Assembly: GCA_030427835.1 (NCBI GenBank)
Contig: JAUICN010000016.1
Location: 1 to 45,852 of the forward strand
Reading direction: 5' to 3'
Origin: Polyangia bacterium
GTDB lineage: Bacteria; Myxococcota_A; Polyangia; Polyangiales; JAUICN01
Length of the DNA stretch: 45,852 bases
Shown: piece after piece, positions 12,344 to 32,323 of the stretch
Layout of the letters: the number at the start of each line of letters is the position of its first letter
Numbering within the stretch: the first letter of the stretch is position 1
Translations under genes and position numbers: made by a program
Notes under the pieces: generated by a model
What the model saw: the letters and a program-made list of their open reading frames with translations, nothing else
Databases searched by the model: none
Told to the model about the DNA's origin: nothing

Positions 12344-14263
12344 ATGGACCACAAGGGTTCCACCCCGCTACACAGCGCCCGCACCCTATCCACATGCCTG
12401 CTCTGGGCGGCGCTCGCCATGGCATGCACACCCGGCGCAACACCATCACACCAGGCAAAAACCACCTGGACCAAGAACGTGCCCCTGACCGACGGTTGGG
12501 TCATCAGCTTTCAGATGGATGTGCATCTATCCACCCAGACCCAGTGCCCGGGCAACCCTCTCGTGTGGAGCAACTCAGTCATCACGGCCGTCCAGGATAG
12601 CTCCGAACCAACAGGCTACAGGAGGGGGCCTGGCTTCACCGTACACAGGGCTGTACACAGTGCCGTCCACGGTGAGGGCTTTGCGGTGCGACTCCACCCC
12701 GAGGGCGCTGCACTTCGGGTTCCAGAATGCGACGCCTTTGATACCCATCCCGGTAGACTGGACAACCTTCTCACACAGGCCACCCAACGTACACTTCACC
12801 ACTTGGCAGAACTGGAAGGGTGGAATCTTGGCGAGAACTTCTCATCCACCCAGGTCCAACTGAGCCCTACCGTTGAAAAGGGCATCAAGGCCTTCGGCAC
12901 CCAGTTGCGGCAACGCCCCGTCGGAATCGTGAACCACCAGGTCCGCAGGCTACTGACTTCCGAAGAAAGTGCCACGACCCCAACGGCCTACGTGGCCTAC
13001 GAGTACCCGACCCAGAACACCCTTAGATGTGCGGCAACCCTTGTGGATTCCGGGTTGGACCGCTACCCCACCGTGGCCATCACCGCATCCCACTGCGTAG
13101 GAGATGGCTCCAGGCCCCAATGGTTAGGCCAGGGAAATATGGATCCGAACGACATCGACACCGGGCACATGGTCCCCGTGCACCTTGCGGTACGCCACAA
13201 CCGTGGCCCCGCCCCGATGGAGAACGTAGGCCTGGGCTTTGAAGCATCCCCCATAAACAACATGGCCATCCTCTTTTCCAGGGAGGATCTTCCCGGCCCC
13301 CGGGCAACCATTCGGTGGGAGCAACAGTTTCCCCCCGCGTCCTTTGAGAAGTTGCATTTCACGGGATTCGGCCACCCACGAAACGGGCAGGCCTCCACCT
13401 GGAAACCCACGGACCCCTTCGTAATCTCCCTGCCACAACAGCCCAAACCCTCACCCTCCGAGCCCTGGAGCCAACCCAGCCATGTCAGTGATCGCGTCTG
13501 GGTCGCACGGACGGACGCCTCCACCAATTGGGGAGACGACGGCGCCGGCCTGCTCAACCACCAGGGGCACCTGCTTGCGGTCCTTTCAGGAACCATCAGC
13601 GGGCCGGACAAGCTTTCCATGTCACCCATTTCCCAGCACACCGGTTTTCTTCAATGTGGCCTCCGCGTGGCAAACACACACCTCTCCTACGCCATTGGGT
13701 ACCAGGTGGATGCGGAGACCTGCCCGGACTGGAATCAAAACCACCTACCCCCCCATTTGCGCGACGGTTCCCCATGGGAGCCGGGCACCCTGGGCACCCT
13801 GCTAGGAGAAACCCAAACCATCGTAAGCGACTGGGAAACCGTGCAGTGCAACGACCCAGACCTGGGAAGCATAGGCATCCTGCGCCGCACCGTGACAGCG
13901 CAAATCGAGGAGGACCAGGCGCCCGTGACCCTTCATATGGATGCCCAGTTCCGGTACGACATCAGCGACAAGGACATCGTGCACAACCGCTCCGTATTTG
14001 GGGGCGCCCATCCGGTCGCTTCCTTGGCCACGTTCTTCACAGCCTACGTTCCCAACCCCCAGCGGACCATTTCACGTTGCCCAAGCACCCGGGGTCGCTG
14101 CACCTGCGTGGGAAATCCAAAACCCGACTGCAAGTGCAGACAACTCTCCCTGGCCGACGCATCCACCGACGCGGTGCATCTCATGTGGTGGACCATCCAC
14201 GGAGAACCGTTCACCGGGGAGGTTTCCCAAACGGAACTCTGGCAACTGCTCCAACGGCTCTAG
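12344..14263 (+). CDS. Family A lipoprotein 1: trypsin-like (S1) fold lacking the catalytic serine
   Basis: 639 residues from the ATG at 12344. A GTG at 12302 is possible, but the signal MDHKGST..LLWAALAMAC (lipid Cys28) starts well here. The middle resembles a chymotrypsin-like protease. CAATLVDSG then TVAITASHCV carries the His position (H250). INNMAILF (305-312) has Asn306 where DIALL proteases have Asp. WGDDGAG has Asp399 where the GDSGG serine should be. A Cys-rich tail (RCPSTRGRCTC then CKC) is shared with the other A proteins. With Asp and Ser both lost it is probably inactive as a protease. It shares an N-terminal segment (DGWVISF..TQC) with other proteins of the locus. The next gene follows after 37 bases. 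Confidence 0.8.
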   Translation: MDHKGSTPLHSARTLSTCLLWAALAMACTPGATPSHQAKTTWTKNVPLTDGWVISFQMDVHLSTQTQCPGNPLVWSNSVITAVQDSSEPTGYRRGPGFTVHRAVHSAVHGEGFAVRLHPEGAALRVPECDAFDTHPGRLDNLLTQATQRTLHHLAELEGWNLGENFSSTQVQLSPTVEKGIKAFGTQLRQRPVGIVNHQVRRLLTSEESATTPTAYVAYEYPTQNTLRCAATLVDSGLDRYPTVAITASHCVGDGSRPQWLGQGNMDPNDIDTGHMVPVHLAVRHNRGPAPMENVGLGFEASPINNMAILFSREDLPGPRATIRWEQQFPPASFEKLHFTGFGHPRNGQASTWKPTDPFVISLPQQPKPSPSEPWSQPSHVSDRVWVARTDASTNWGDDGAGLLNHQGHLLAVLSGTISGPDKLSMSPISQHTGFLQCGLRVANTHLSYAIGYQVDAETCPDWNQNHLPPHLRDGSPWEPGTLGTLLGETQTIVSDWETVQCNDPDLGSIGILRRTVTAQIEEDQAPVTLHMDAQFRYDISDKDIVHNRSVFGGAHPVASLATFFTAYVPNPQRTISRCPSTRGRCTCVGNPKPDCKCRQLSLADASTDAVHLMWWTIHGEPFTGEVSQTELWQLLQRL

Positions 14264-14300
14264 AAACCCCATCGCCCCCTGCGCCACACAGATCCACCCC

Positions 14301-16106
14301 ATGGCCCAAGCCGTACACATCGCCCAATCGATTCTAGCCACGGGAATAGTAGCGGCCATCGGTGCCTGCACGGCCCTTCCCCATTCCCAAAACACACCAC
14401 CTCCTGGGATTGCGAAAACCTCCACGGACCCACTCACACTGGATCTGTTGCTCCCCGACGGCTACCGGCTCGACACTCGCCCTGAGTACCACCTGTTTAC
14501 CTACCAAAGTTGCCCCGTCGCACGGGTAGTACGATCCCTCCAGGTGATTCTTTTCGATAGGGACCTCAACGGGGAGCTTGGCCTGGGCGTCAGTTGGAAC
14601 GAAGCCACCGGGCGGTTTTCTGTGCGACACGGCAACTCCATCTATCCCAACGATCATCTGCATTACCCCCCTGTGTTTTGCAAAGACCACGACCTTATGC
14701 ACAACGACGCGGTCGCAAAAATCACCCAGTCCATTGTGGACAAACTCCTTTCGATACTGGGAAACATCCCGCTCCACAACGAAGACGAACAGCGCATTGC
14801 CCTGCGCATCCATGACCTCTTAAAACGGCTATCCCAACGGCGCCCCGAAACGGTGGGTCGCTTCGGTGGAAGTTCCGGTGGGAATTCTGGTCCAACGCCA
14901 CTTCACATCCTTGTACCCCGTCGCGGCGACCTATGGGAGCTCACCTGCGCGGCAACGTTGCTCAACGAAACATCGCCTAGCCACAGTGCCATGGTGGCCA
15001 CGGCAGCACACTGTATTCCAGGCAACGAACCGCAGTTGTACGTCGGATCAGGAGAGATGGCCCCTGGCAACGGCCAACAGATCGACCTGGCTGTGGTCCA
15101 TCGAAACAAACCAAGGCCCAACCGATCGACACTCATGGAGCTCCAGGTGCCCGCCGCCAACAACATCGCCCTGCTCTTTCTCAAGAACTCCCTGGGCCAT
15201 TCGAACGTGGCCTGGCCCAAACCACCCATGCCCCCCCAGGCAACACCCGAGGGCCCGCTCACGGGTTTCGGCTACGGGAGCCCAAAAACCGGCACCCCCC
15301 ATTTCTGGCGAGCGGATTCCCTACAAACCACCCGCGAGAACACCTGGCACGCCTTGGGACAGGGGTTCAACCTGGCCCGGGGCGACGAGGGTGGCGGTGT
15401 CGCCGACGGGCACACCCTGTGGGGCATCCTAGGGGGCCGAGGCCCGGGCTACGACGCACCAACCCACCAACCTGCCCCACGGGCAGCGCTGATTCCAACG
15501 GCGCCACATGGCAAATTCTTCCAATGTGCCCAACGGACTGCCCGTCGACTGGCCAACACACACGGCCACTCCACCTCCCTCACAAGTACCCTTCAGGAGC
15601 GGAACCAGTGCCCCCGACCATCCGGAACAAAACAGTCCCAGGCACTCCCACCCCTAGCGGAGCGTTCACAAACCATTGCCGTGGGAGAACACGCCACCGC
15701 CGTGGTACTTCCCTGGGCAAGCGCCCTGTGCAGAAGCAACCTCGGCATCCACCCCATCGCCAACCGGAGAATCATGTTGGAGGATCCTAATGGCAGAACC
15801 CTCCACTTCCTCATCACAGCCCAAACGAAAACCACAGCAACAACAGACGGGGGCTCTGTGGCCAACCACGAAGACCACTTCCTAGGCTACCTACCTGCCC
15901 CAGACCAGCCCGTAGTGCCGCCCTGCCCGAGCACACGGGGTTCATGCAAGGACAAACCAGCCTCCGTGGACTGCGTCTGCAGCCTACCCACCCTGCAGCA
16001 GGCCGCAGTATCCACCTGGAGCCTCATGATTCAGCATCTGGGTGATGCCGGAAGCAACGACGTTGCGAACTTCGAAGCCTTCCTCAGCGTCATCGAAGAG
16101 CCATAA
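14301..16106 (+). CDS. Family A lipoprotein 2: trypsin-like fold lacking the catalytic serine
   Basis: 601 residues from the ATG at 14301. The frame stays open upstream, but that part overlaps the previous gene, and a lipoprotein signal (ILATGIVAAIGAC, Cys23) begins here. CAATLLNE then MVATAAHC keeps the His (H237). NNIALLF has Asn288 in place of Asp. RGDEGGG has Glu363 in place of the catalytic Ser. The tail PCPSTRGSC then VDCVC matches that of the first A protein. A predicted helical stretch (IVDKLLSIL..IALRIHDLLKRL) precedes the protease-like domain. It is probably catalytically dead but retains the fold and the disulphide cysteines. Paralogue of 12344-14263 and 26582-28516. Confidence 0.82.
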   Translation: MAQAVHIAQSILATGIVAAIGACTALPHSQNTPPPGIAKTSTDPLTLDLLLPDGYRLDTRPEYHLFTYQSCPVARVVRSLQVILFDRDLNGELGLGVSWNEATGRFSVRHGNSIYPNDHLHYPPVFCKDHDLMHNDAVAKITQSIVDKLLSILGNIPLHNEDEQRIALRIHDLLKRLSQRRPETVGRFGGSSGGNSGPTPLHILVPRRGDLWELTCAATLLNETSPSHSAMVATAAHCIPGNEPQLYVGSGEMAPGNGQQIDLAVVHRNKPRPNRSTLMELQVPAANNIALLFLKNSLGHSNVAWPKPPMPPQATPEGPLTGFGYGSPKTGTPHFWRADSLQTTRENTWHALGQGFNLARGDEGGGVADGHTLWGILGGRGPGYDAPTHQPAPRAALIPTAPHGKFFQCAQRTARRLANTHGHSTSLTSTLQERNQCPRPSGTKQSQALPPLAERSQTIAVGEHATAVVLPWASALCRSNLGIHPIANRRIMLEDPNGRTLHFLITAQTKTTATTDGGSVANHEDHFLGYLPAPDQPVVPPCPSTRGSCKDKPASVDCVCSLPTLQQAAVSTWSLMIQHLGDAGSNDVANFEAFLSVIEEP

Positions 16107-16375
16107 AACCGGCCAGCCGAGCCAAAGGCGCGGACCTCGAATTTCCAACCGCTCGCCACCGGAACACCATTCCCACCGAAACGGACCTGCCGCCCCTGGC
16201 CACCCCAAGCGCCAGGCAGTCCAGAAAACAGCAACTGAACGCGCCACAGCTCCCTGAAGTACTTGGCCTCGTCCCAATGAATTTCCGATGAGCGAACCTG
16301 GCACAGGACGTGCTCGACAGGACTACGCAAGCCACCCAATCCACCGTGGACAAACCATGGCCTGCAGCCCTTACC

Positions 16376-18511
16376 ATGCCGTTCTATTCCTCAAGGTCCC
16401 GAAAAAAAACCAACCCGCCAGCCAGAGTCGCCCGCCGCACCCTGTGGGCCCTCTGCCTCACGATTAGCAGTCCCCTTGCTAGCCCCTCCTGCCTGGCACC
16501 TCCCCCTGGGGACCAGAAAAGTAGCGCATCCTCCCTAAAATGCGGGCGCAATATCGGTGCCCATCAACTGAGTGTCATTCGAACCCTAGGGTATCGGACC
16601 GATCACAACCGCAGACCCATGTTGGACAGCCAAGGTCACCCGAAACCCGCCACCCTTGTGGCAGTGACACTTGGAACCTTTGGGGGACCAAACGGTCTAC
16701 TCGCCAAAACCTACACCGTGGAAATTTGGGGGAAAGATTTAAACCCTCCGCCCCGCGAACCAAAACTCGACTCTCGCTACCTGATTGCACCCGAGAGAAT
16801 TAAGCCAGCAGACTCCACAACGAATACCCCCCAACTGACCGACGGCGCCACACATACACCCCACCTGGAAGAGGATGGTGTCATTCGCATGACCGAGGAT
16901 GATGACGGCACCTACCATCACGTAGCCCCCGTGGACAGCACCTCGTCCTCGACCGCGCTTGTCCCCACCACGTCGCAAACGGGCCAGGTGGCCACGATCC
17001 CTGACCCAGGGACCGCAGGCCTACCCGCAACCGCACGGGCCTCCCAAACCCCAACCCTCTATCAACAGGCCCCCACGTGGGCCCCCGCAACCCTGCAATG
17101 CAAGCTCAGGGGATCCACCGTTGGCCTTGATACCGATTGCACGGAAGTTACCCGCAACATCATCAGCGAAATCGCACGCTATGTTCACAGCACGCTGTTG
17201 TTCAATCTAGGGAAGCTCCCCCCAGGGGTTGCGGCCTCCTTCGAAACCGTTCGCACCGCCTACGTTGCGTCCAGTCAAGACTTCGCAGGGCACACAAGCG
17301 CGCAGCTACTCACAAGGGCCGCCACCAGCTCCACACACGACTTCAATAACTTCCTGGATGACTTCTACGCGACCATGACGAAGATGGTGGTGGACTACCT
17401 GCAAACCCTTGGAAACAAGCTCCGCCAACACCTGGAGCAATACCCAACGGAACTTGCCGCCCTGACCACCGCCACCTGCAGTCAACTCCTGGACGTGAAC
17501 CCCCAGTTTGCCGCCCGCTGCAACCACTTCCTTGCCGACCCGGGTCAGTTCAACGCCTGGGCAAGCGAAGCCATCACCCAGGCCACCAACCCTGAACATC
17601 TCCTGGCCCGACGATTCGTCCAGGAAAACCGTACCCTCATCGACAGCGATCGGGCAGTTCCGCCGCTGATGAACGCAGCACCACCTTTCACCCCCATACA
17701 CCTTGTGGAAACCAGCTGGCAGGCACAGCATGAAGCCGAAACCCACCTGCACCCCTCCATGTTTGCATTCCACGCGGGTTACTACGACGCCGCGGATCCC
17801 AACGGCCCATTTGCGGGAAACGTTTCCCTCCACAACGCGCTCATGGCCGCCACCCTGCAGCGGTGGCTTTGGTTGCACGCCACGTCTTCCCAGGGCGGCC
17901 CCGGTGCAGAGCCCCAGGCCCCAGCGGGACCCCAGTGCCACGTGATCACCTCGAAGCTCAAACACCCCTCCCGTTGCCATGAAGCTGCAGAGGCGTCCTA
18001 CGGAACATGCATGGCCCGCATGAACGAACTCGCCCTCGCCACCACCATTCCCGCACCACCCACCATGGTCGCCCCGGGAGGAAACCCGCATGGAAACCTG
18101 GGAGGAAACCTGGGTCACCAAAGCGACATGCATCTTGGCGACCCCAATCCAACCCCATCCAACACCGGGTTTCCCAGTCAGACCATGCGACCTGAACCGG
18201 AGTACAAGGAAGCCCTGCTGCACGCCTGCGCAAACCTTCGAACCAACATCACGGCCTCCTGCGATCAAGCGCGGCCACCCGTGAACAACCTGGGCTGGGT
18301 GGAGGGCACCGTGGCCGCTCTGGATCCAAACGGCTGCAAGGAGGCACACCAACCCCCGTGCACAGGTTTCAGGGGGCTACACCAGACCATGGCGGAACAT
18401 CACGTGCCCAACGCCGGTGCCATCGCCACCCAGTACCTCGATGAGGCCTGCAGAACCGGCCTTGCCATCTGCACCGCCATGGGCCCCCAGGACTCCCCCT
18501 GGAAGAACTAG
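16376..18511 (+). CDS. Family B lipoprotein 1, no recognised family
   Basis: 711 residues from the ATG at 16376; a GTG at 16310 is an alternative. No clear ribosome binding site is visible. The signal ends LASPSC (Cys39). I do not recognise a known domain. Against the paralogue at 21484-23610, shared landmarks are CGRNI soon after the lipid Cys, xTVEIW, CKLxG, FNN followed by a long helix (from F323), WxxxHEAExxxxPSM (H452) with YY downstream, LxxATLQRWLWL, Cys pairs in CHVI..RCHEAAE..GTCMAR, and LLHACANLRTNITASC. The middle (150-250) is low-complexity Thr/Pro/Asp-rich. C-terminal cysteines suggest disulphides outside the cytoplasm. The stop is 8 bases before family C protein 1, so the two are probably co-translated. 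Confidence 0.8.
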   Translation: MPFYSSRSRKKTNPPARVARRTLWALCLTISSPLASPSCLAPPPGDQKSSASSLKCGRNIGAHQLSVIRTLGYRTDHNRRPMLDSQGHPKPATLVAVTLGTFGGPNGLLAKTYTVEIWGKDLNPPPREPKLDSRYLIAPERIKPADSTTNTPQLTDGATHTPHLEEDGVIRMTEDDDGTYHHVAPVDSTSSSTALVPTTSQTGQVATIPDPGTAGLPATARASQTPTLYQQAPTWAPATLQCKLRGSTVGLDTDCTEVTRNIISEIARYVHSTLLFNLGKLPPGVAASFETVRTAYVASSQDFAGHTSAQLLTRAATSSTHDFNNFLDDFYATMTKMVVDYLQTLGNKLRQHLEQYPTELAALTTATCSQLLDVNPQFAARCNHFLADPGQFNAWASEAITQATNPEHLLARRFVQENRTLIDSDRAVPPLMNAAPPFTPIHLVETSWQAQHEAETHLHPSMFAFHAGYYDAADPNGPFAGNVSLHNALMAATLQRWLWLHATSSQGGPGAEPQAPAGPQCHVITSKLKHPSRCHEAAEASYGTCMARMNELALATTIPAPPTMVAPGGNPHGNLGGNLGHQSDMHLGDPNPTPSNTGFPSQTMRPEPEYKEALLHACANLRTNITASCDQARPPVNNLGWVEGTVAALDPNGCKEAHQPPCTGFRGLHQTMAEHHVPNAGAIATQYLDEACRTGLAICTAMGPQDSPWKN

Positions 18512-18519
18512 GAAATCAA

Positions 18520-21237
18520 ATGCGTCAACACCACTCCACACGGTTCCCCCTGCTCTCCCTCATTTCCCTGGCCCTCATCTCCCTGGCGCTGGTCTCCTGC
18601 AGCCCACCCGCCCTGCGGATCAAATCCAACCTGCGGGAGCTCCCAGGTGGAGTACAGGTATCGTTCACCTCAGGGCAAACCCCGCTCACCTGCGGCACCC
18701 AGGTCATGTTGGACGACCGGTTGAGCGTCGGGCACACCCGCCTGGCCTCCTCCACGTCGACCACCATCGACGTTCAGATCCTGCGGGTGGAACTCACCGC
18801 ACCCCGGGGTGGAACCTTCACCGCCCAAATCGAAATGCACCACCAGGGCCAGGGCGCCGATGCACGCATCGGTTACAACCGCACCTACCACAAAAGCGAC
18901 AACCTAAACGTTCCCACGTACGCGCAGAACAACTTCGCCTCCGCCCTTCAGCTGGCCGAAGGAGTACTTCAACCGGACTCCTTCCAGCGATTCCACAACC
19001 CACTCCAACTCAGGGACCCCACCCAGCCCATGCTGACGGACTCCCTGGATGACATGACCCTTGATCTTTCACAGGTCGTGGCCACCCAAACGGGCGTACA
19101 GCAATTCCAGGATGCCAAGGAGGGATTTTGGACATTCATGGGTTCACCCCCGGCACCCACTCCGGAGGCCCAGGGGCTGGTTCCAGTGGACACCTTTGTA
19201 TCCGCGTGTGAGTTCGAAACCAGCCCCGTTCGCATCAAACACATGTTTGATGAAGTGGCCTCCACCACGGCGGCCATGGCCCGAATGATGGCCCAGGGAA
19301 CGGGCACCCACGTGGATGTTCCCACGGGAGTTCACCCCGGGAAAACCCACCCACGAACCTGGGGAGGCCTTGCCGATGCCCTACGCCTATGGGCACAGAC
19401 CCACAGCGCCCATGGCGGATCCCAAATGGACAACAACGCCCAGAAGGAAATCGAGTTGCAGCTCACCGCCACCATCGGTTCCCCGGAGCGGGCCCTGGCC
19501 AACCCGGACACGTGGGTAAGCTACACCGATCCAAATGGCGCCAAGAATATTGACGCCAGGTGCCTCAACGGCGAACCCGCAGTCCTGGGTGTACGCCACA
19601 ACCCCGAAGGTCATCCCGCCTACGCCCTCGTGGATTTTGCGGGCGGCGCAACCTCCCATGACCGTGACGAAGGCACCGGATCCCTCAACGGGTTCCTAGG
19701 GCCTGACGCCCCACCCACCGACGACCAACTACCGGCACTCGCCTCTGAGATTTTCGAACCCACGGGTGGGTTGGCCCTCGGCAGCACCCCATACGATGGT
19801 ACCGCCATCGAGGGCGTACCCGCACCGGAATGGCATTTTCTTACCACCCCATGTACCCAGGATCTGGGCATCGGTGCCAACACCAAAAACCGCCACCAGG
19901 GGATGCTGAACTTCGTGGAGTTGTTCCAACGCTTTGCGGGCACGCTGGTGGCGGGGGACCACCCCGTGGAACAGGTTATTGTGGTGGGAGAAGGGGCCGG
20001 GGCCGCCCAGGCCACGTTGGCCCCCCAGGTCATCACCGCACAGCTAAACGGGCCGTTGTTGTTCCGAAAGGGATTGGCCATCTACCAGGACGGCAACGGC
20101 CTCGTACTGGACGCCAAGCCTGGCATCGTCCCGGTGGACACCATCACCTCCGGCAACCCCCTGCTCACCCTTCCCGGACACCTTGCCGAACACCTAGACC
20201 AGGTCGCTGTGGACGAGTGGGGTTTCAGAGATCTACCGTCCACAACATACCATGCAAACGCCCAAAGTTGGAGCTATGGAAACCTCGGATCCACCTACCA
20301 GAACAAAGCATCTGGAATTCCAAACGACTTCCATGCCAATAGTGGGTGGGCAGACACCCAACAACGCAAAATCCGAAGCACGCTTCAGGACATAGAACGC
20401 TATCTGCCCTTGCTACAGGGTGCAGGGTTACGGGTACAGGCTGCCCTAGGGCGGCTCAGCCACCAGAGCCAACATGGGGACCACGATCACCTGGCCATGC
20501 ACGCGTTGGGGGATCCCACCCTGCTGCAGTTCACCCAGTGGGCCAATGATGACAGCCCTGAAAAACGCACCGCATTGCAAACCGCCATCAACCTGGGGGC
20601 CGGCCTCGCACGGATAGAGATTGCCAGCACCGTGGCGGGTTCAAGCGCCGCCGCCGCTGAAGCCCTGGCCTTGCTGCAGGAAAATCAGTGGATTCTCCCT
20701 GAGGACCTCCGCAAGGCAGCACAAACCACCGCCCAGGCCACGGCACAAACCATCCACGTGGCATCAGAAGTCACCACCAAGTTCCTGGACGCCCTGGCCA
20801 CCATCCAGCTGGGGATCCGGGCCGTCAACGGCGACCCCATGGCCATCACCGCCATTGTGCTCACCTCACTCGATGCCCTGGGCTTTCAAGTTCCCAACTG
20901 GGTGAAAATCCTCACCTCCAGCCTCACCGCCCAACAATGGGCCGACGCCACCATGAATCACCTTTTCGGTCGGGCAGGGTTGGCATTCTCCCCTCACCTT
21001 GCCGTGGCCCTCGCCGGCAGTGCGGACCACGACTGGCTGGAGTCCGCGGCCAATGCCGCCATAAAGTACGGCTTTCTGGCCATCCAAAACGACCTCCAAC
21101 GGCGGGTAGAGCACAGCGCCACAGAGTTGGCCTCCCAATTCCTCCACAAGGAGCTTCGCTTCCTCGGCGCCTACGCGGGCCGTGCCATCAGCCAGCGGTT
21201 TGCCGCCGGCATGGCCGATCTGCGCCCCGCCATCTAG
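18520..21237 (+). CDS. Family C lipoprotein 1: degenerate pectinacetylesterase/NOTUM-like alpha/beta hydrolase
   Basis: 905 residues. AGGAAA lies six bases before the ATG, and the lipobox is LVSC (Cys27). N-terminal segment LPGGVQVSF..LTCG is shared in style with family A. Landmarks in the order of the pectinacetylesterase (vtpJ/NOTUM) family are: VDFAGGATSHD (F373), compared with the family's F.GGG.CWD oxyanion segment; CTQDLGIGA (C445), compared with CTGDxHxG; HQGMLN (H459), compared with HHRGxxN; and VVGEGAGAAQATL, compared with GxSAGG. In the last, Gly492 occupies the nucleophile serine position. The C-terminal 300 residues are mostly helical, ending RFAAGMADLRPAI. The family match is my motif comparison, not a search. 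If right, the enzyme is inactive. Confidence 0.8.
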   Translation: MRQHHSTRFPLLSLISLALISLALVSCSPPALRIKSNLRELPGGVQVSFTSGQTPLTCGTQVMLDDRLSVGHTRLASSTSTTIDVQILRVELTAPRGGTFTAQIEMHHQGQGADARIGYNRTYHKSDNLNVPTYAQNNFASALQLAEGVLQPDSFQRFHNPLQLRDPTQPMLTDSLDDMTLDLSQVVATQTGVQQFQDAKEGFWTFMGSPPAPTPEAQGLVPVDTFVSACEFETSPVRIKHMFDEVASTTAAMARMMAQGTGTHVDVPTGVHPGKTHPRTWGGLADALRLWAQTHSAHGGSQMDNNAQKEIELQLTATIGSPERALANPDTWVSYTDPNGAKNIDARCLNGEPAVLGVRHNPEGHPAYALVDFAGGATSHDRDEGTGSLNGFLGPDAPPTDDQLPALASEIFEPTGGLALGSTPYDGTAIEGVPAPEWHFLTTPCTQDLGIGANTKNRHQGMLNFVELFQRFAGTLVAGDHPVEQVIVVGEGAGAAQATLAPQVITAQLNGPLLFRKGLAIYQDGNGLVLDAKPGIVPVDTITSGNPLLTLPGHLAEHLDQVAVDEWGFRDLPSTTYHANAQSWSYGNLGSTYQNKASGIPNDFHANSGWADTQQRKIRSTLQDIERYLPLLQGAGLRVQAALGRLSHQSQHGDHDHLAMHALGDPTLLQFTQWANDDSPEKRTALQTAINLGAGLARIEIASTVAGSSAAAAEALALLQENQWILPEDLRKAAQTTAQATAQTIHVASEVTTKFLDALATIQLGIRAVNGDPMAITAIVLTSLDALGFQVPNWVKILTSSLTAQQWADATMNHLFGRAGLAFSPHLAVALAGSADHDWLESAANAAIKYGFLAIQNDLQRRVEHSATELASQFLHKELRFLGAYAGRAISQRFAAGMADLRPAI
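18560..18589. repeat. 15-bp tandem duplication within a signal-peptide coding region
   Basis: TCATTTCCCTGGCCC and TCATCTCCCTGGCGC are adjacent, 13 of 15 identical and in frame. They encode the doubled ISLAL core of the family C protein 1 signal peptide. Confidence 0.7.
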
Positions 21238-21360
21238 CGGCTTCGAGGTCACTTCCACCGGATCGCCTCCCCCATGCAAAATTCAGCTGCAAATTGAGTC
21301 GCAGGGTGACCACTGGAGAAGCCATAGAAAAAGCGATCTAGCCGGTTCGTATTCAAGGTT

Positions 21361-21386
21361 CCTGGAAACCTACCCAATTTTCCAGG
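21361..21386. other. 8-bp inverted repeat between family C 1 and family B 2
   Basis: CCTGGAAA (21361-21368) and TTTCCAGG (21379-21386) are separated by ten bases, in the 246-base gap 21238-21483. The gap has no gene I can support. The repeat could be a terminator stem without a T tract, or an operator for the second B-C pair. Confidence 0.35.
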
Positions 21387-21483
21387 CACTTACGCTTGGC
21401 ATAGCCCGTGCAGAAGGGGTTCTACGTTTTGCCAGGGATCCATTCCAGGTCCCCGGCCAACGCCCTGCCAGGAAGCCAAACCC

Positions 21484-23610
21484 ATGAGCACCCACAACAC
21501 GTCCCCCAAGCCCTCCCGACACCCCAAACTCCCTGCCCATCGACTCGGTGCCCTCCGACTCGGTGCACTTCTACTCACCCTCCCCACCCTGGCCTCCTGC
21601 ACCGCCATGGGCGTCCCCAACACCAACACCAAATCCACCCACCGCTGCGGCCGGAACATCTACGACCTTTTTAACCTAGAGGTTCGGCGTTGGGTAAGCC
21701 ACCGCACCCATGAAGACGGAACCACCGTTCTCGATGAAACCACAGGTTCCACCCAAGACGCCCTTCGAATGGACATCACACTAAGTAACTTCGGAGCGAG
21801 CACCTCCCAACAACAGTCCGTCACCTGGAAGGTCGAGATTTGGCAAAACGGCACTCGAAAAGTGGAAGACCCCCGAGAGGGCCACGAGCTCTTTCGTGAA
21901 ATCGCATCCGCCAACCCGGCCGCAGACTCCTCTGAGTTACAAGGCACCCCCCATGCAGACTCCGCCCATGCCCGGCTTGAGCCCATTGCTAGGGACGACT
22001 CCACCGCCGCCCTGGCGGACAGCTCCACCCAAACCCGAACGCCGGTTGGCCTTCGCAACACATGGCCCTTCGCCGACACCGCAAGCCAAGCCAACGCCCT
22101 GGGGTGCAAACTCATCGGGCATTCCGCAGATCTTCAGGACGGCAGTTGCAGTACCGTTTCCTTGGAGATTAGCTCCAGCATCAGTCGAGCGGTGCGCGAC
22201 TTCACCGTGGGCGACCTCGCTGGGCTACCGCTGGCAGACAAGACCCCCCTGGACATGATCCAAGCCTATTCCACCCAAGTCATTCGCGAGGGCAACGGTT
22301 CAGCCAGAAACGGCCACATCCGAAGCATTCAAGGCGCAATCTACGCCCATACCACAACGGGGCATGAAGGGCTTTTGTACTCCGGACTCCATGAAAACAG
22401 CCAATCGTTTAACAACTACATCGAGCATCTTGCGGGATCCATTCGGCACTGGGCAGAAGCCTACCTCAACATCGTTCAGGAAAAACTACTGGCCTACGCG
22501 GAAAACAACCAGGAACTACCCGATCGCATCCAGAAAGTGTGCGCGGTCCTCTGGGGATCCAACACGCCATTCAACGATGCATGCGCAGAAAACAATGAAA
22601 ACGTTCACGCATGGGTAGAGAATTCCGTAAAGCATTCGCTCAGTCTTGTGAGCCAGGCGCGACGGGTACTTCAGCAAACCGCCCCCGTCCTTGGTCAAGA
22701 CCGAAGAGACAACAACTCCTATCCCGCCAAACATGCGATGCTGCCCGATGCTTGGTACCCGCGGCACGAGGCAGAACTGGAAACCGACCCTTCCATGGAG
22801 GTCTTTTACCATGTGTACTACGGGGCCCTGTCCGAGCCGGGCGCAGTTGAACTTGCACCGGTCAGCCCTGAGCCCGGAAACGCCAAGCGACACCGACACG
22901 CACTGTACTCCGCGCAGTTGGCCCGCATGCTGTGGCTTGCAGAAAACTACCCTGGGAACCACAACTCACTGGAACCCCACATCACACCGATATCCGACGC
23001 GTGTGGCGTCATCTATGGCCAAGAGGGCCCCGGAGGCAACCACCGGCTCTGTGAAAAGGCCGCGCAAATCGCACATTCCACGTGCATGGCCTATCAAAAA
23101 AGGCCGGAGTTTATTCTCACCAAATATCCGGAACTTCATGGTGGAAACCAACCGTCCCCAAGTGTCGCTCCGATCGCTCCCGACCCCCATCTGCGAGACA
23201 ACAGAAATGCCGTCAATCTGAACCCGAACGCACAGTTGGGCCCGGTCGCATACCTAAACGAAAAGCAACTCTACTACCTTGCAAAGGGCTGCGCCGGCCT
23301 GCGGGACACCATGGCCGCCAGCTGCGGCATTGCCGAGGAAGAACAAACCCTTGGCAGCAATGTCCCCCCAGACGTGGGCACACCCCTAGATATGGAGCGG
23401 TGCAGACACGCGGTCACCGATGTGTGCGGTACCTACCTCCAAATGGAAGACGCCTGTGAAAAAGCTGAAATCCCCGAGCCCGGAGAAAAAGCAACCCATC
23501 TCCTACAACGATCTTGCACCGCTGCGGCAGAAATTTGCCCCGCACAACAAACATACGGCCCGGTTGCGCCCCCCTGGACCAGCCACCTCACCCCAAACAC
23601 CGATCACTAA
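21484..23610 (+). CDS. Family B lipoprotein 2, no recognised family
   Basis: 708 residues. AGGAAG (21470-21475) is well placed for the ATG. The signal ends LPTLASC (Cys39), and its coding region has a 15-bp tandem repeat at 21541-21570 (RLGAL twice). Landmarks shared with the B protein at 16376-18511 include CGRNI, VTWKVEIW, CKLIG, FNNYIEHLAGSIRHWAEAY (from F309), HEAELETDPSMEVFYHVYYG (H428), LYSAQLARMLWL, HRLCEKAAQIAHSTCMAY and GCAGLRDTMAASC. Conserved His, Glu, aromatic and Cys residues suggest a shared fold with several disulphides, but I cannot name it. It is followed after 69 bases by the second C gene, repeating the B-C order. Confidence 0.82.
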   Translation: MSTHNTSPKPSRHPKLPAHRLGALRLGALLLTLPTLASCTAMGVPNTNTKSTHRCGRNIYDLFNLEVRRWVSHRTHEDGTTVLDETTGSTQDALRMDITLSNFGASTSQQQSVTWKVEIWQNGTRKVEDPREGHELFREIASANPAADSSELQGTPHADSAHARLEPIARDDSTAALADSSTQTRTPVGLRNTWPFADTASQANALGCKLIGHSADLQDGSCSTVSLEISSSISRAVRDFTVGDLAGLPLADKTPLDMIQAYSTQVIREGNGSARNGHIRSIQGAIYAHTTTGHEGLLYSGLHENSQSFNNYIEHLAGSIRHWAEAYLNIVQEKLLAYAENNQELPDRIQKVCAVLWGSNTPFNDACAENNENVHAWVENSVKHSLSLVSQARRVLQQTAPVLGQDRRDNNSYPAKHAMLPDAWYPRHEAELETDPSMEVFYHVYYGALSEPGAVELAPVSPEPGNAKRHRHALYSAQLARMLWLAENYPGNHNSLEPHITPISDACGVIYGQEGPGGNHRLCEKAAQIAHSTCMAYQKRPEFILTKYPELHGGNQPSPSVAPIAPDPHLRDNRNAVNLNPNAQLGPVAYLNEKQLYYLAKGCAGLRDTMAASCGIAEEEQTLGSNVPPDVGTPLDMERCRHAVTDVCGTYLQMEDACEKAEIPEPGEKATHLLQRSCTAAAEICPAQQTYGPVAPPWTSHLTPNTDH
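21541..21570. repeat. 15-bp tandem duplication in a signal-peptide coding region
   Basis: CGACTCGGTGCCCTC and CGACTCGGTGCACTT are adjacent, 13 of 15 identical and in frame. They encode RLGAL twice at the start of the hydrophobic core of family B protein 2. Confidence 0.7.
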
Positions 23611-23679
23611 TCCCCCACTGCCACCAAACGCAGTCCCTTCATCCCAACCAGTCCACCCACAACCCCTGCTGGAACTCCA

Positions 23680-26580
23680 ATGACCCAACCCCGCACGTCC
23701 CAATCCACCACCCACCCATGGCGCCGCCTTGGAGCGTGGATCACCACCGCCACCCTGGCCGCTACTTCCGTGGCAATCGCCGGCAACCTTACCGCCTGCC
23801 AGGCCCCCGCCGCACAACTGCAGGGCCGTGGAAAGTCCATCACCCGGGAGCTCCCGGGCCATGTCAACGTCACATTCAACTCTGCTCTCTCCGAGGTAAA
23901 CTGCGGGGAAATCATTTCCCTCAACGATCAGTTCAGTCCCGGCGATTCCTTTTCCAACGTCGCCCGTGTGGACACAAAAAGCCTGGAGCTACACACCATC
24001 ACCCTCTCGGACACGTACGGAAAAAAATTCTCCGTGAGGATTGAAATCCAACGGAACGATCAGGGTCGATCCGGAGTCAACCGCACCTACTTCTACGACC
24101 AGGACCTCGGTTTTCCGTTATACGAAAAATCCAAGTTCCAAACCTACAAACAGATTGCCACCATCACATGGGAAGGGAACCAGGCGGACAGATTTGTACA
24201 TCCAGACGAAAACCCAGACAGCACCTCCTTGCCGGGCGTGTTCATGGATGCCATCGACGATACCGGAATCGATCTGTCAAAGGACCTCGGGCTCAACGGC
24301 CTATCCCCAGACTCCCTCGGCCTCAACAAGCTCCACCTCGACAGAATCTTCAACTGGACGGACGATGAGAAAAAAGAGGGAACACAGCCCTACAGCCACC
24401 TCTCCATGGCATCCGTCCACTGGACCCCCAACGTGGTGGGCCAGGAAGCCTGCGAAACCACTTACCGTGGAGACCACGCCACCGAGATGTACGCCGAGAT
24501 TGGCTACAACCTTGCCTACGTGGCTCGAATGATGGCCCAGAAGGCGGGAGTCATCGTAGATGGAAACACCGGCGCCACGCCTGAACCGGTCTGGAACGGC
24601 CTCTCCAATGCGCTCGTCCATTGGGCCACGCCCCCGGGAATCCCAGACTCCGTGGCGGACACGGAATTCCAACACCAAATCCTCCTACAGATCCAATCCG
24701 CCATCCACGGCTACACCCGCGCCATGGCCCAGGAGGATACCTGGGTAGAGTATGGAGATCTGGAACCCAACGGCATCCAAGCCACGTGCGCCAACGGAGA
24801 CGCGGCTACCTACGCAGTCAAGTACAACAGCGGAGGCGCACCCTACCTCAACTACCACTTCAGCGGCGGCACCACCTCCCACGACCAGAACGACCGCACA
24901 GGAGACGTGGACGACTTCCTTGGCACCGACCACCCGCCGGAAAACAACCAGGGCACCTGGGATCGGCTGGCCATGCCCTCCCTGGACGTCGCCACCGAAT
25001 TCACCACGCAAGTTACCGCAGGTCAGGCCACCCCAGGCCAGGCCAGCACAAGTCAGGGAGCCAACGGAGACTTCGGGTACGACGGCACACCTTCGGGTGC
25101 CCCGGCACCCATGTGGCAAGTTACCCAACCCGCATGCACCCAGGATCTTACCCTGGGTGCGGACACCGATCCCGCCAACGGCTACCACCAGGGCCTCACC
25201 AACACCAACGAGTTCCTGGCCCAGTTGCGTTACGCTGTGACCGGCACGGAACACCCCATCGAACACATTGTACTGTCAGGAACCGGAGCCGGAAGCGGCG
25301 GCGTCACCCTTGCAAAACTCTTCGACCACAAGTTCAGTAAAGTCTTTACAGAGATGGAGATGCCCACAGTGGAGGTGAACTCCAAGCACTTCAACATCAT
25401 CCCCATCTCCATGATCATGGAGGCGAGTCCTTTTCAGGCCCTCACCAAGGACCTATCGGAGAATCTCGATCGCTTTGCCGAAAAAAACTGGAACATGGCC
25501 GGGCTGTACACAAGTACTGGGGTCTGGGGAAATGGGTCCGCCATTTGCAATGACTGCTGGGCATCCCTCACCTACGTCATGAGGAACCTCGCCATTGACA
25601 AACATTCGAACTGGATAGCGTCCCGAGGAAGCAGGATCTGGGAAACCATCGTCGGAAACGATAGCAGGCGGATCCCAATCCCAACCCTGGAGCCCCACAT
25701 CAATACCCTGATCGCCCAGGCCGGCGGCGGCAACCGCGCGGCCACCGCACTTCTAGAAAACATCTACCACGTGGCCAAGGAGGGGGATCCGGACCTACTC
25801 ATGCTGGGCTCCCTGAGGGACGAAACACTGCTCCAGTTCCTCCGCTGGGCGGATTTGGGAGGCCCAGAAACCCTGGATCACATGGACAAGGCCCAACGGC
25901 TGGCCACCGCCCTTTTACAACTGCGTGTCACCCAGGCCGCAGAGGGCACCCTCATGACCATTGCCGAGGCCCTGGACTTCTTTGAAAAGAACGAATGGGC
26001 CGTTCCAGACGGGCTTGTGGCCCACTCACGAAACCTCGCCCAAGCCTCCGAAGACGTTCGAACCGGCCTCGAGACCTTCTTCAAGGCCCTGGGCGCCGTT
26101 CAGGTGGCCGTGCGCGCTGCCAACGGGGACCCCCTGGCCATCGCTGCCGCGGTGGTGGAAGTCCTGGACGTGGTGGGCGTGGAAGCACCGGAATGGGTCA
26201 AATCCCTCGTGGGCCTCCAGGACTTCACCATGGATGACCTGGCCAACCACACGAAGAACTACCTCTTCGATACCGGTGTGGGGCGGGTGGCCCAGGGCGT
26301 GGCCACAAACATCGCCGACCTCAAGGGAATCACCGTGGCAATCACAAGCAACGAGAATCACTCCTGGTGGGAAAGCGCTGGAGAAGCCGCGGCGGACTAC
26401 GTCTTCAAGGCAGGCACCCAACAGGTCAAGAAGAGTGCCAACCAACTGGTGGGCGAGTTCCTCACCCGTGAACTCCCCTTTAACCGCCACTACGGTGGGC
26501 AAGTCGCTAGCTGGGCGTTTAATCAGTTCCGAGGTGGGTTTGCTGAAGGAATGGCGGACCTACAACCTGCCTCGAACTAG
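23680..26580 (+). CDS. Family C lipoprotein 2: degenerate pectinacetylesterase/NOTUM-like alpha/beta hydrolase
   Basis: 966 residues. A twin-Arg-free signal ends AGNLTAC (Cys40). N-terminal LPGHVNVTF..VNCG aligns with LPGGVQVSF..LTCG of the first C protein. Pectinacetylesterase-like landmarks recur in the same order: YHFSGGTTSHD (F394), CTQDLTLGA (C486), YHQGLTN (H503) and IEHIVLSGTGAGSGG. Gly536 sits where the nucleophile Ser of GxSAG is expected. The 33-residue spacing from the HQG His to the Gly is identical in both paralogues. The C-terminal half is helical (ALGAVQVAVRAANGDPLAIAAA) and ends GFAEGMADLQPASN. Only one base separates its stop from the next gene, indicating translational coupling. 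Probably a non-catalytic hydrolase-like surface protein. Confidence 0.82.
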   Translation: MTQPRTSQSTTHPWRRLGAWITTATLAATSVAIAGNLTACQAPAAQLQGRGKSITRELPGHVNVTFNSALSEVNCGEIISLNDQFSPGDSFSNVARVDTKSLELHTITLSDTYGKKFSVRIEIQRNDQGRSGVNRTYFYDQDLGFPLYEKSKFQTYKQIATITWEGNQADRFVHPDENPDSTSLPGVFMDAIDDTGIDLSKDLGLNGLSPDSLGLNKLHLDRIFNWTDDEKKEGTQPYSHLSMASVHWTPNVVGQEACETTYRGDHATEMYAEIGYNLAYVARMMAQKAGVIVDGNTGATPEPVWNGLSNALVHWATPPGIPDSVADTEFQHQILLQIQSAIHGYTRAMAQEDTWVEYGDLEPNGIQATCANGDAATYAVKYNSGGAPYLNYHFSGGTTSHDQNDRTGDVDDFLGTDHPPENNQGTWDRLAMPSLDVATEFTTQVTAGQATPGQASTSQGANGDFGYDGTPSGAPAPMWQVTQPACTQDLTLGADTDPANGYHQGLTNTNEFLAQLRYAVTGTEHPIEHIVLSGTGAGSGGVTLAKLFDHKFSKVFTEMEMPTVEVNSKHFNIIPISMIMEASPFQALTKDLSENLDRFAEKNWNMAGLYTSTGVWGNGSAICNDCWASLTYVMRNLAIDKHSNWIASRGSRIWETIVGNDSRRIPIPTLEPHINTLIAQAGGGNRAATALLENIYHVAKEGDPDLLMLGSLRDETLLQFLRWADLGGPETLDHMDKAQRLATALLQLRVTQAAEGTLMTIAEALDFFEKNEWAVPDGLVAHSRNLAQASEDVRTGLETFFKALGAVQVAVRAANGDPLAIAAAVVEVLDVVGVEAPEWVKSLVGLQDFTMDDLANHTKNYLFDTGVGRVAQGVATNIADLKGITVAITSNENHSWWESAGEAAADYVFKAGTQQVKKSANQLVGEFLTRELPFNRHYGGQVASWAFNQFRGGFAEGMADLQPASN

Positions 26581-26581
26581 G

Positions 26582-28516
26582 ATGCGGCATATCCCACGGG
26601 CTCGCGTGAGATCCCGGAGCAGCACATTGGGGCGCCCCTTGTGTTGCTCTCCCCTCCTCTGCATGGCGCTGGTAGCGTGCTCCGCTGGTTCAAACACCCC
26701 AGCCGCACACATCAAATCCAGCCACCGGCAGACCACCGTGGAGTTTGGTGACGGCGGCAAGGTCATCTTTGACCACCTCAACCGGGTCTACATTCACCCC
26801 CGGTGCGACAACTCCCTGTTCTGGAATGTACAAATCACGGTGGTCCCCCAGAAGGGCGACAAAGCCCTGGGGACCACCCGCCTGGATCTCCACCACAGGG
26901 TGCAAAAGGACACCTATGCCCTGATCGAAGAACCCGCCGAGATACCTGCAGAAACGCCTGACTGTGACGAATTCACGCTCGAGATCCAGGATCTGCGAAA
27001 GCACGTCGATCAACTGATTCGGCACTCCGTAGAAAGCCCCCAGGAACAGAACACCGAGAACGAAACCGACATCACCTCAACCACAGTACGCAACCTGGAG
27101 ATGGAAGAAATCCTCACCCAAACCCGCCGGCTCCTGCACAAACTGGAAACCGGCAACTTCCCCTCCACCAACCGCACGCTCATCCACCATCGCACCCGTA
27201 CCAAACCAGGCGGCCACGCCTACGTGCTCACCTCCCAATGGCCGCCCGCAACGGAGCAACGGCGCCTTACCCATTTCGACAGGCACGAGCTGCATTGCTC
27301 CGCCACCATGATCGACACCCGGGCAGGCCCCTACCAAACCGTCGCCATCACCACCGCGTCCTGCCTCACTCCAGCTCCGGGCACCAAACGTTTTCCCAAC
27401 ACCACATACCTGCCCCTTCGGCTGGGGGGAGGATCCAAAATCTCCTGGGGCGCGCCGGTGGAGTTTGCGGTGGTTCACAACCAATACCGTTCCCAGGGCG
27501 CAGCACACCAAAACAGCCCCCTTGTGGACAATCCGCCTGCCAACGACCCAATGGCAAACCACATCGCAGACAACGACATCGCCCTGCTTTTCGTGCACAA
27601 ACCCCAGTGGGGAATCCGCGCCCACACACCCGCAACGCACAACAGCACTCCGGAGATTATGCAAACCAAGTTGGCAGGAAAAGTATCGTTTTTAGGCTAC
27701 GGATCACCACGGGTGGGCACCGGATCCCAATGCATGCTCTCGGTACAGGGCCAGGACAACCTCCCCAACCTGCGTTGGAACGGTGTGTCGTCCTGTTCCG
27801 TGGGTTGGGGCGACCGGGGCGCCGGAGTCATGGCGAGCGACGGTCATCTCCTGGGCATCCTTCGGGGAACACAAATCGACCCCACGACCCCCTGGCCCAC
27901 CCAGGACCTTCAAGTCACCCCCACCTCAGCGCACCTGGATTTCATTCAATGCGCCCTTGGCATGGCATCACGACGGGCCGACATTCCTGATGGCAAACGG
28001 GGCTCCATTCCCTTCGACGTCAACGAGGAAAGTTGCCCGCCCCATTCCTCCCATCGAAACGTTTCCCTGGCCCGGAACACCCGTGAAACCTACCTTCGAA
28101 AGAAGCGGGTGTTGGTGTCCCCCTGGGAAACATTCACGTGCAACACCGCCTCCTACAACTACCATCAGATCCAGCACCGCACGGCTGTGGTGGAGGTTCC
28201 CAAGGAAGTATCGCCCACAGAGTCGATCACCATTCACCTCTTTGCTGAACCGGCCCCCAACCCCAGCTCAGACACCGTGGGCTTCTATTCTGCACAGGCC
28301 GGCCCCTTCCCCGAAACCCAATGCCCCCACGCCCTTGGAAAATGCGACTGCAGCCCCATCGAGCGAAACTGCCCCTGCCACCGAACCAAGGTAAGCGAGG
28401 TTCTCGACGATGCCACCGACCTTGCGCGCCTCGCACTTTCAAATCCAGACTCGGGTGAGATCCCTGCCATCCCCCAGGCCGAAGCCGACCACTTCCGAAG
28501 CCTGCTCTACCACTAG
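26582..28516 (+). CDS. Family A lipoprotein 3: trypsin-like fold lacking Ser and His
   Basis: 644 residues from the ATG at 26582, one base after the preceding stop; the upstream open frame is out of phase inside family C 2. The signal ends CMALVAC (Cys33). The S1-like framework is CSATMID then TVAITTASC, where Ser260 takes the place of the catalytic His. DNDIALLF keeps Asp332. VGWGDRGAG has Arg412 in place of the catalytic Ser. The Cys tail QCPHALGKCDC then NCPC matches the other A proteins. It has lost a different pair of triad residues from its two paralogues, so decay was at least partly independent. The N-terminal segment (GGKVIF..HPRC) and a charged helical region (130-190) precede the protease-like domain. 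Confidence 0.82.
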   Translation: MRHIPRARVRSRSSTLGRPLCCSPLLCMALVACSAGSNTPAAHIKSSHRQTTVEFGDGGKVIFDHLNRVYIHPRCDNSLFWNVQITVVPQKGDKALGTTRLDLHHRVQKDTYALIEEPAEIPAETPDCDEFTLEIQDLRKHVDQLIRHSVESPQEQNTENETDITSTTVRNLEMEEILTQTRRLLHKLETGNFPSTNRTLIHHRTRTKPGGHAYVLTSQWPPATEQRRLTHFDRHELHCSATMIDTRAGPYQTVAITTASCLTPAPGTKRFPNTTYLPLRLGGGSKISWGAPVEFAVVHNQYRSQGAAHQNSPLVDNPPANDPMANHIADNDIALLFVHKPQWGIRAHTPATHNSTPEIMQTKLAGKVSFLGYGSPRVGTGSQCMLSVQGQDNLPNLRWNGVSSCSVGWGDRGAGVMASDGHLLGILRGTQIDPTTPWPTQDLQVTPTSAHLDFIQCALGMASRRADIPDGKRGSIPFDVNEESCPPHSSHRNVSLARNTRETYLRKKRVLVSPWETFTCNTASYNYHQIQHRTAVVEVPKEVSPTESITIHLFAEPAPNPSSDTVGFYSAQAGPFPETQCPHALGKCDCSPIERNCPCHRTKVSEVLDDATDLARLALSNPDSGEIPAIPQAEADHFRSLLYH

Positions 28517-32102: not shown

Positions 32103-32323
32103 TCCTCCTACTTTTTGTGAGCCTCACGCTCGCGGCCTGCGCCGTGGGATTTTTCGTCTGGAACGTGCTGCAGCAAAACCAGGACCACACCGACAGGTTG
32201 TCGATTTTGCCCCTGGACCGCCCAACCTCCCACGCCACACCCACCACCCATTTCGGCGACCACACACAAGCGGCCGCCACAAAAGGAGAAGAGAATGGAA
32301 ACGGAACGAATCACCTACAATGA
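32090..32323 (+). CDS. ccoS: cbb3 oxidase maturation protein CcoS
   Basis: 77 residues. GGAGAGG is immediately upstream of the ATG at 32090, which lies inside the 3' end of ccoI in another frame. A single N-terminal transmembrane helix (ALVLLLFVSLTLAACAVGFFVW) is followed by a short polar tail, the usual CcoS form, here extended by about 25 residues. It is required in other bacteria for cofactor insertion into the oxidase. The stop overlaps the ccoNO start. Confidence 0.85.
   Translation: MEALVLLLFVSLTLAACAVGFFVWNVLQQNQDHTDRLSILPLDRPTSHATPTTHFGDHTQAAATKGEENGNGTNHLQ

Follow-up and report, generated by a model that had tools for sequence, protein, structure and literature searches.

Neuroligins and other cholinesterase-like adhesion proteins are dead α/β hydrolases that serve as binding proteins. 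In another branch of the superfamily, the bacterial pectinacetylesterases (PAEs; PF03283) of the vtpJ type retain the nucleophile Ser, two loop cysteines, the Asp of an IDDSG motif, and a C-terminal His. The Wnt deacylase NOTUM (4uyu and others) is an active carboxylesterase with the triad S232-D340-H389, in which the His follows the Ser (PMC8172013), and plant PAEs carry their triad in GCSxG, NxayDxxQ, and HCQ (PMC5465549). In MamO, a bacterial serine-protease fold comparable to that of the A proteins described below, and unlike the PAE fold, has been repurposed for a nonproteolytic role, metal binding in magnetite formation (PMC4794232). Our literature search for PAE or NOTUM relatives in connection with nucleophile loss or pseudoenzymes returned nothing on point. 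We know of no earlier noncatalytic PAE-type protein; the two proteins reported here, C1 and C2, would be the first if confirmed, and it is the PAE type that would be new, since dead α/β hydrolases as such are already known from the neuroligins.

The window is a whole contig of 45,852 bases from a 3.3-Mb, 30-contig genome. Both open reading frames of interest lie on the + strand exactly where the sequence-only reading had placed them, within a series of genes in the order A1, A2, B1, C1, B2, C2, A3:

A1: 12344..14263, + strand, predicted trypsin-like lipoprotein with Asp for Ser (GDDGAG)
A2: 14301..16106, + strand, predicted trypsin-like lipoprotein, PF00089 above cutoff, with Glu for Ser (GDEGGG)
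B1: 16310..18511, + strand, Cys-rich predicted lipoprotein ahead of C1, no family match, start codon uncertain
C1: 18520..21237, + strand, predicted lipoprotein of 905 aa (lipobox ...LVSC) that contains a divergent PAE-like domain
B2: 21484..23610, + strand, paralog of B1, between C1 and C2
C2: 23680..26580, + strand, 966-aa predicted lipoprotein (lipobox ...LTAC), paralog of C1
A3: 26582..28516, + strand, predicted trypsin-like lipoprotein with Arg for Ser (GDRGAG) and Ser for His

The intergenic gaps are, in turn, 37, 203, 8, 246, 69, and 1 bases. The lipoprotein call for all seven was made from the sequence itself, in which a hydrophobic leader is seen together with the Cys of a lipobox; C1 and C2 would accordingly be lipid anchored and may lie at the cell surface. 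Codon-position G+C of C1 and C2 resembles that of the neighboring genes (GC3 0.73 and 0.74).

C1 and C2 are paralogs that align over 977 columns at ∼31% identity (E 3e-110). The landmarks attributed to both proteins were found exactly at F373/F394, C445/C486, H459/H503, and G492/G536 (C1/C2), and the spacing of 33 residues from the His to the Gly is the same in each. The PAE-like regions and their motifs are as follows:

C1 PAE-like region: 19498..20919, + strand, residues ∼327 through 800 (hhalign, 327 through 572; range in the model by VIA-align, 327 through 792)
C2 PAE-like region: 24727..26241, + strand, residues ∼350 through 854
C1 FAGGATSHD, F373 through D381: 19636..19662, + strand, matches the PAE oxyanion-loop motif YLxGGGACFD
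C1 CTQDLGIGA, C445 through A453: 19852..19878, + strand, matches PAE CTGDxHxG
C1 HQGMLN, H459 through N464: 19894..19911, + strand, matches PAE fvGYxN, not the triad His
C1 elbow GEGAG, residues 490 through 494: 19987..20001, + strand, Gly492 at the nucleophile position
C1 Asp665: 20512..20514, + strand, in the catalytic-Asp column of PAE/NOTUM
C2 elbow GTGAG, residues 534 through 538: 25279..25293, + strand, Gly536 at the nucleophile position
C2 Asp714: 25819..25821, + strand, in the catalytic-Asp column

The proteins share with the vtpJ-type PAEs, including two from the same genome (P0001 and P0002), the order and spacing of W, C..G, the GG loop, CTxD..G, G..N, the GxxAG elbow, and the Asp; like P0001 and P0002, they are also predicted to be secreted lipoproteins. 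They differ from these PAEs in the Gly of the elbow, in a longer helical C-terminal part, and in scores that fall below any curated cutoff.

Searches of Pfam and NCBIfam at E 1 brought up no PAE family for C1 or C2, and the similarity was therefore tested by profile methods; both score below the PF03283 gathering threshold of 26.6 bits, which P0001 (46.1 bits) and P0002 (44.2 bits) exceed. Comparison of C1/C2 with 16 vtpJ-type PAEs by hhalign gave a probability of 96.0 and a score of 77.1 over 197 columns (C1 residues 327 through 572), against 29.6 for the best of 200 column-shuffles and 16.1 for a reversed alignment; a larger profile of 54 PAEs gave 95.9%. This similarity covers the N-terminal half of the catalytic domain and places both proteins in the PAE/NOTUM superfamily. 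In hmmsearch with the 16-PAE profile, C2 reached 15.0 bits and C1 14.2 bits (best of 2000 shuffles, 6.3). The larger profile (A8; 54 PAE rows) ranked C2 third and C1 fourth, behind two real PAEs, among the 313 ORFs of the window and of stretches from the same genome (E 2.5e-4 and 1.3e-3; next ORF, 1.9). Its shuffle control was narrower (14.8 and 12.5 bits for C2 and C1 vs. 9.9 for the best of 4000), and over the whole genome it returned the two real PAEs only, with C1 and C2 absent even at E 10. In the reverse direction, a profile made from C1 and C2 alone was run against 80 real PAEs, 45 of which outscored every one of 800 shuffled PAEs. Human NOTUM was matched in the PDB at E 5.3e-33 by a profile built from 13 vtpJ-type PAEs, and this match ties the PAE bridge to NOTUM; the C1/C2 profile gave two weak, unrelated matches in the PDB.

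A MAFFT alignment of full-length C1 and C2 with 52 nonredundant named PAEs (80 named loci, giving 72 parsed domains, 64 after trimming, and 52 after removal of near copies) contains 10 columns that are invariant in all 54 rows; these include the Asp, the loop GG, and both Cys and Asp of CTxD. Conservation in the PAEs is 85% or higher in 42 columns, of which C2 retains 24 and C1 23. Judged by the profile comparisons and their shuffle controls, the landmark match is not a product of chance. The remote homology to PAE/NOTUM α/β hydrolases that the sequence-only reading had proposed is thus supported by profiles in both directions and by the multiple alignment, and also by AlphaFold2 models that are not independent of them.

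The AlphaFold2 models of C1 and C2 were built from 54-row alignments that included PAE rows and are of low confidence (mean pLDDT 56.6 for C2 and 54.6 for C1; pTM 0.52). In both, a strand leads through a tight GxGAG turn into a helix, and two further strands follow, the last of which ends ahead of the Asp. Superposition with VIA-align, applied to models of pLDDT 55-57 that had been given PAE rows, returned NOTUM as the top match for both (C2, Z 17.2, 280 residues, 4.0 Å; C1, Z 16.4, 276 residues, 4.3 Å); the predicted core superposes over ∼280 residues, with 12-18% identity in the listed superpositions, and the Ser and Asp columns of the triad can be mapped. Foldseek placed NOTUM first for the C1 model (E 5.1e-5; 35 matches at E 0.001); for the C2 model it found nothing at E 0.001, NOTUM was absent among the 50 matches listed, and neuroligin chains were among the weak matches listed. 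Because PAE rows were fed to the models, the NOTUM match speaks to consistency and is not independent proof. Residues 50 through 140 of C2 (window 23827-24099) form a confidently predicted five-stranded β-domain (block pLDDT up to 92, from few informative rows); weak, short Pur-α matches of the C2 model in Foldseek (62 columns, E 0.11) may correspond to this N-terminal domain.

Of the 52 nonredundant named PAEs, 51 have Ser in the elbow column and the remaining one has Ala. Unlike NOTUM, which has its active Ser at this position, C1 and C2 have Gly (G492; G536), as had been claimed. A substitute serine was sought in the elbow and none was found (C1 GEGAGA, C2 GTGAGS); S539 of C2 lies three residues beyond the elbow and is not common to C1. 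The column of D665/D714, at the end of the seventh strand, holds Asp in all 52 PAEs and likewise in each of 11 NOTUM-like PAEs from the order, several of the latter as YDxxQ or MDxxQ. These 11 were chosen with GxSAG as a condition, and their elbow Ser was therefore not counted as evidence. On this alignment, the catalytic Asp is probably kept in both proteins (D665; D714). The D of IDDSG had been considered for this role and was dropped, as the bridge alignment puts the YDxxQ-type Asp on D665/D714, in line with the plant PAE triad motifs (PMC5465549); the IDDSG Asp itself is gone (S544 in C1; E581 in C2).

H459/H503 are not the triad His, because they lie ahead of the elbow and in a column that is not His-invariant among PAEs; the invariant His of the PAEs examined is near the C terminus. 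The residue in the triad-His column varies by alignment (C1 H746 or A733; C2 R794 or H782), the C-terminal quarter aligning poorly, and a tail-only hhalign comparison of the C-terminal part of C1/C2 gave no significant match. Past the Asp, the first His common to both proteins is H837/H894, which an inspection of the alignment by eye places in a conserved HxWxES stretch. The triad His would either be lost or be this His, behind a helical insertion, and what has been lost from C1 and C2 appears to be the Ser and perhaps the His. Both cysteines of the GGGxC...C loop are invariant in the 52 PAEs and neither is present in C1 or C2; the cysteines retained are C348/C370 and C445/C486.

We consider it likely that C1 and C2 are secreted lipoproteins with a domain derived from a vtpJ-type PAE, in which Ser was replaced by Gly before the duplication, and that they act most plausibly as noncatalytic binders or as partners of the B proteins. 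The central domain would descend from a bacterial PAE of the PAE/NOTUM branch of α/β hydrolases and would keep its fold along with the glycines of the oxyanion loop, the position of the catalytic Asp, and a possible cysteine pair (C348-C445). A single loss, preceding the separation of C1 and C2, is the simplest account because the two paralogs have the same Gly. This replacement would leave the serine-esterase mechanism unusable, and hydrolase activity of every kind may be absent. C1 and C2 may instead bind an ester- or acetyl-bearing ligand, such as a glycan or an acylated surface polymer, or pair with the neighboring B lipoproteins; acetylated or acylated glycans are a guess by analogy with the parent enzymes, and the B partnership is a guess based on the recurring succession of B and C genes. 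Neuroligins differ from the C proteins in belonging to another branch of the superfamily, in being animal proteins, and in a loss of catalysis without common ancestry.

Retention of an enzymatic role, with other chemistry (another nucleophile, or a metal) in the same pocket of an α/β-hydrolase fold, seems unlikely to us. Such a role would fit the kept Asp column, and the His of HxWxES (C1 H837, C2 H894) could, by eye, be a triad His displaced past the helical insertion; against this, the elbow offers no Ser substitute common to C1 and C2, neither the loop cysteines of PAEs nor the Asp of IDDSG is retained, and the tail comparison lends H837/H894 no support. The resemblance to PAEs could also be convergent or fortuitous, in which case C1 and C2 would be large orphan lipoproteins that carry a few Gly/Cys motifs but are unrelated to α/β hydrolases. 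The landmarks occur in order, however, and profile support in both directions far exceeds the shuffles, both proteins stand directly behind the true PAEs in the ranking of 313 ORFs, and NOTUM is the top VIA-align match for both models; we regard coincidence as rather improbable, even with no curated family match, a genome-wide PAE-profile search that misses both proteins, and low model confidence. Decay into pseudogenes would account for the catalytic loss and for a C family confined to its own genome among 377 phylum genomes sampled. It is very unlikely because two long frames (905 and 966 codons) are intact despite divergence to 31% identity and because codon-position composition is normal; the same landmarks are also retained in both proteins, and the genes sit close to their B and A neighbors (gaps of 8, 69, and 1 bases).

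P0001 and P0002 are lipoproteins encoded on contig C7, with the elbows GNSAGG and GDSAGG; in both, the columns of the invariant Ser, Asp, and His are preserved, and both are presumably active. From the named PAE relatives, the genome may belong to the Myxococcota. Derivation of the C proteins from these PAEs is unsupported, as the C profile scores L076 best among PAEs and P0002 lower. PF03283 is common in the order (matches in 89 of 115 genomes). At E 0.001, relatives of C were found in the own genome only and in none of the 376 others among 377 phylum genomes; it is the sole genome of its family among the relatives sampled. At E 0.01, matches came from 3 of 56 genomes of the order, namely the own genome, G035, and G016. 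The G035 match is a real PAE, aligned from CTGD to GxSAG, and that of G016, an ORF that to us reads like DNA polymerase I, was taken as chance. Two short C peptides found no relatives in the genome contig collection. In a named metagenome-assembled genome, a PAE (L102:2983-4089) has Ala for the elbow Ser (GVAAGG) and is possibly, from its sequence, another dead PAE. At L005:5775-13084, two tandem pairs each combine a triad-retaining PAE lipoprotein with a ∼430-aa partner lipoprotein; three related Cys-rich proteins adjoin these pairs on the opposite strand.

Five hydrolase-like proteins of the locus have the nucleophile replaced, as the sequence-only reading had counted: C1, C2, and the three A proteins, whose elbows (GDDGAG, GDEGGG, GDRGAG) depart from the GDSGG of trypsin. 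The repeated recruitment read from this count holds in part. For C it probably counts the same event twice, C1 and C2 being paralogs with the same Gly; for A the repetition is genome-wide, not local. An iterated search found 24 A-family ORFs in 12 stretches of the own genome. Among the 18 that could be aligned at the motifs, 3 have Ser and His (two on L066 and one on L064) and 15 are without Ser; the 6 left out did not align there, and one of them (L072:3066-4586) has DSG at the elbow. The family is spread across L063-L069 and window positions 12344-16106 and 26582-28516, with six members within ∼13 kb on L063. On the A-family tree, which has long branches, the 3 triad-bearing and 15 dead members would call for two changes. 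Loss of the nucleophile is, by these alignments, a theme of the genome in two unrelated folds, trypsin-like and PAE/NOTUM, and the bacterium probably puts such dead enzymes to new use as binding components. With two triad-keeping PAEs and both dead and triad-bearing trypsin-like lipoproteins, the genome therefore has built-in controls for why dead hydrolases persist in numbers. That the A-A-B-C-B-C-A array is a surface lipoprotein system of dead trypsin-like and PAE/NOTUM folds, sharing a Lys anchoring signature and serving in adhesion or ligand recognition, is a tentative and somewhat doubtful extension.

Homology of B1 and B2 to the ∼430-aa proteins that follow the contig-C7 PAEs (Q1 and Q2) was rejected (hhalign probability 0.2). 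An N-terminal domain common to C and the A, B, PAE, or partner proteins was likewise not supported over 15 pairings: A-PAE lay clearly above 30 shuffles (31.5 vs. 15.0), A-C, A-B, A-Q, A-M, B-M, and PAE-M lay slightly above them, and the rest, including C-PAE, C-B, C-Q, and C-M, fell below. A Lys, mostly as KS or KT, occurs ∼7-18 residues past the lipobox Cys in C1, C2, B2, A2, the L005 lipoproteins, and several A proteins. It spans several unrelated lipoprotein families of the genome, is absent from most other lipobox-like ORFs listed, and may act as a signal for export or sorting. Downstream of the locus lies a cytochrome oxidase gene; at window positions 32295-34631, a single ORF fuses CcoN and CcoO of a cbb3 oxidase (COX1 and FixO domains).
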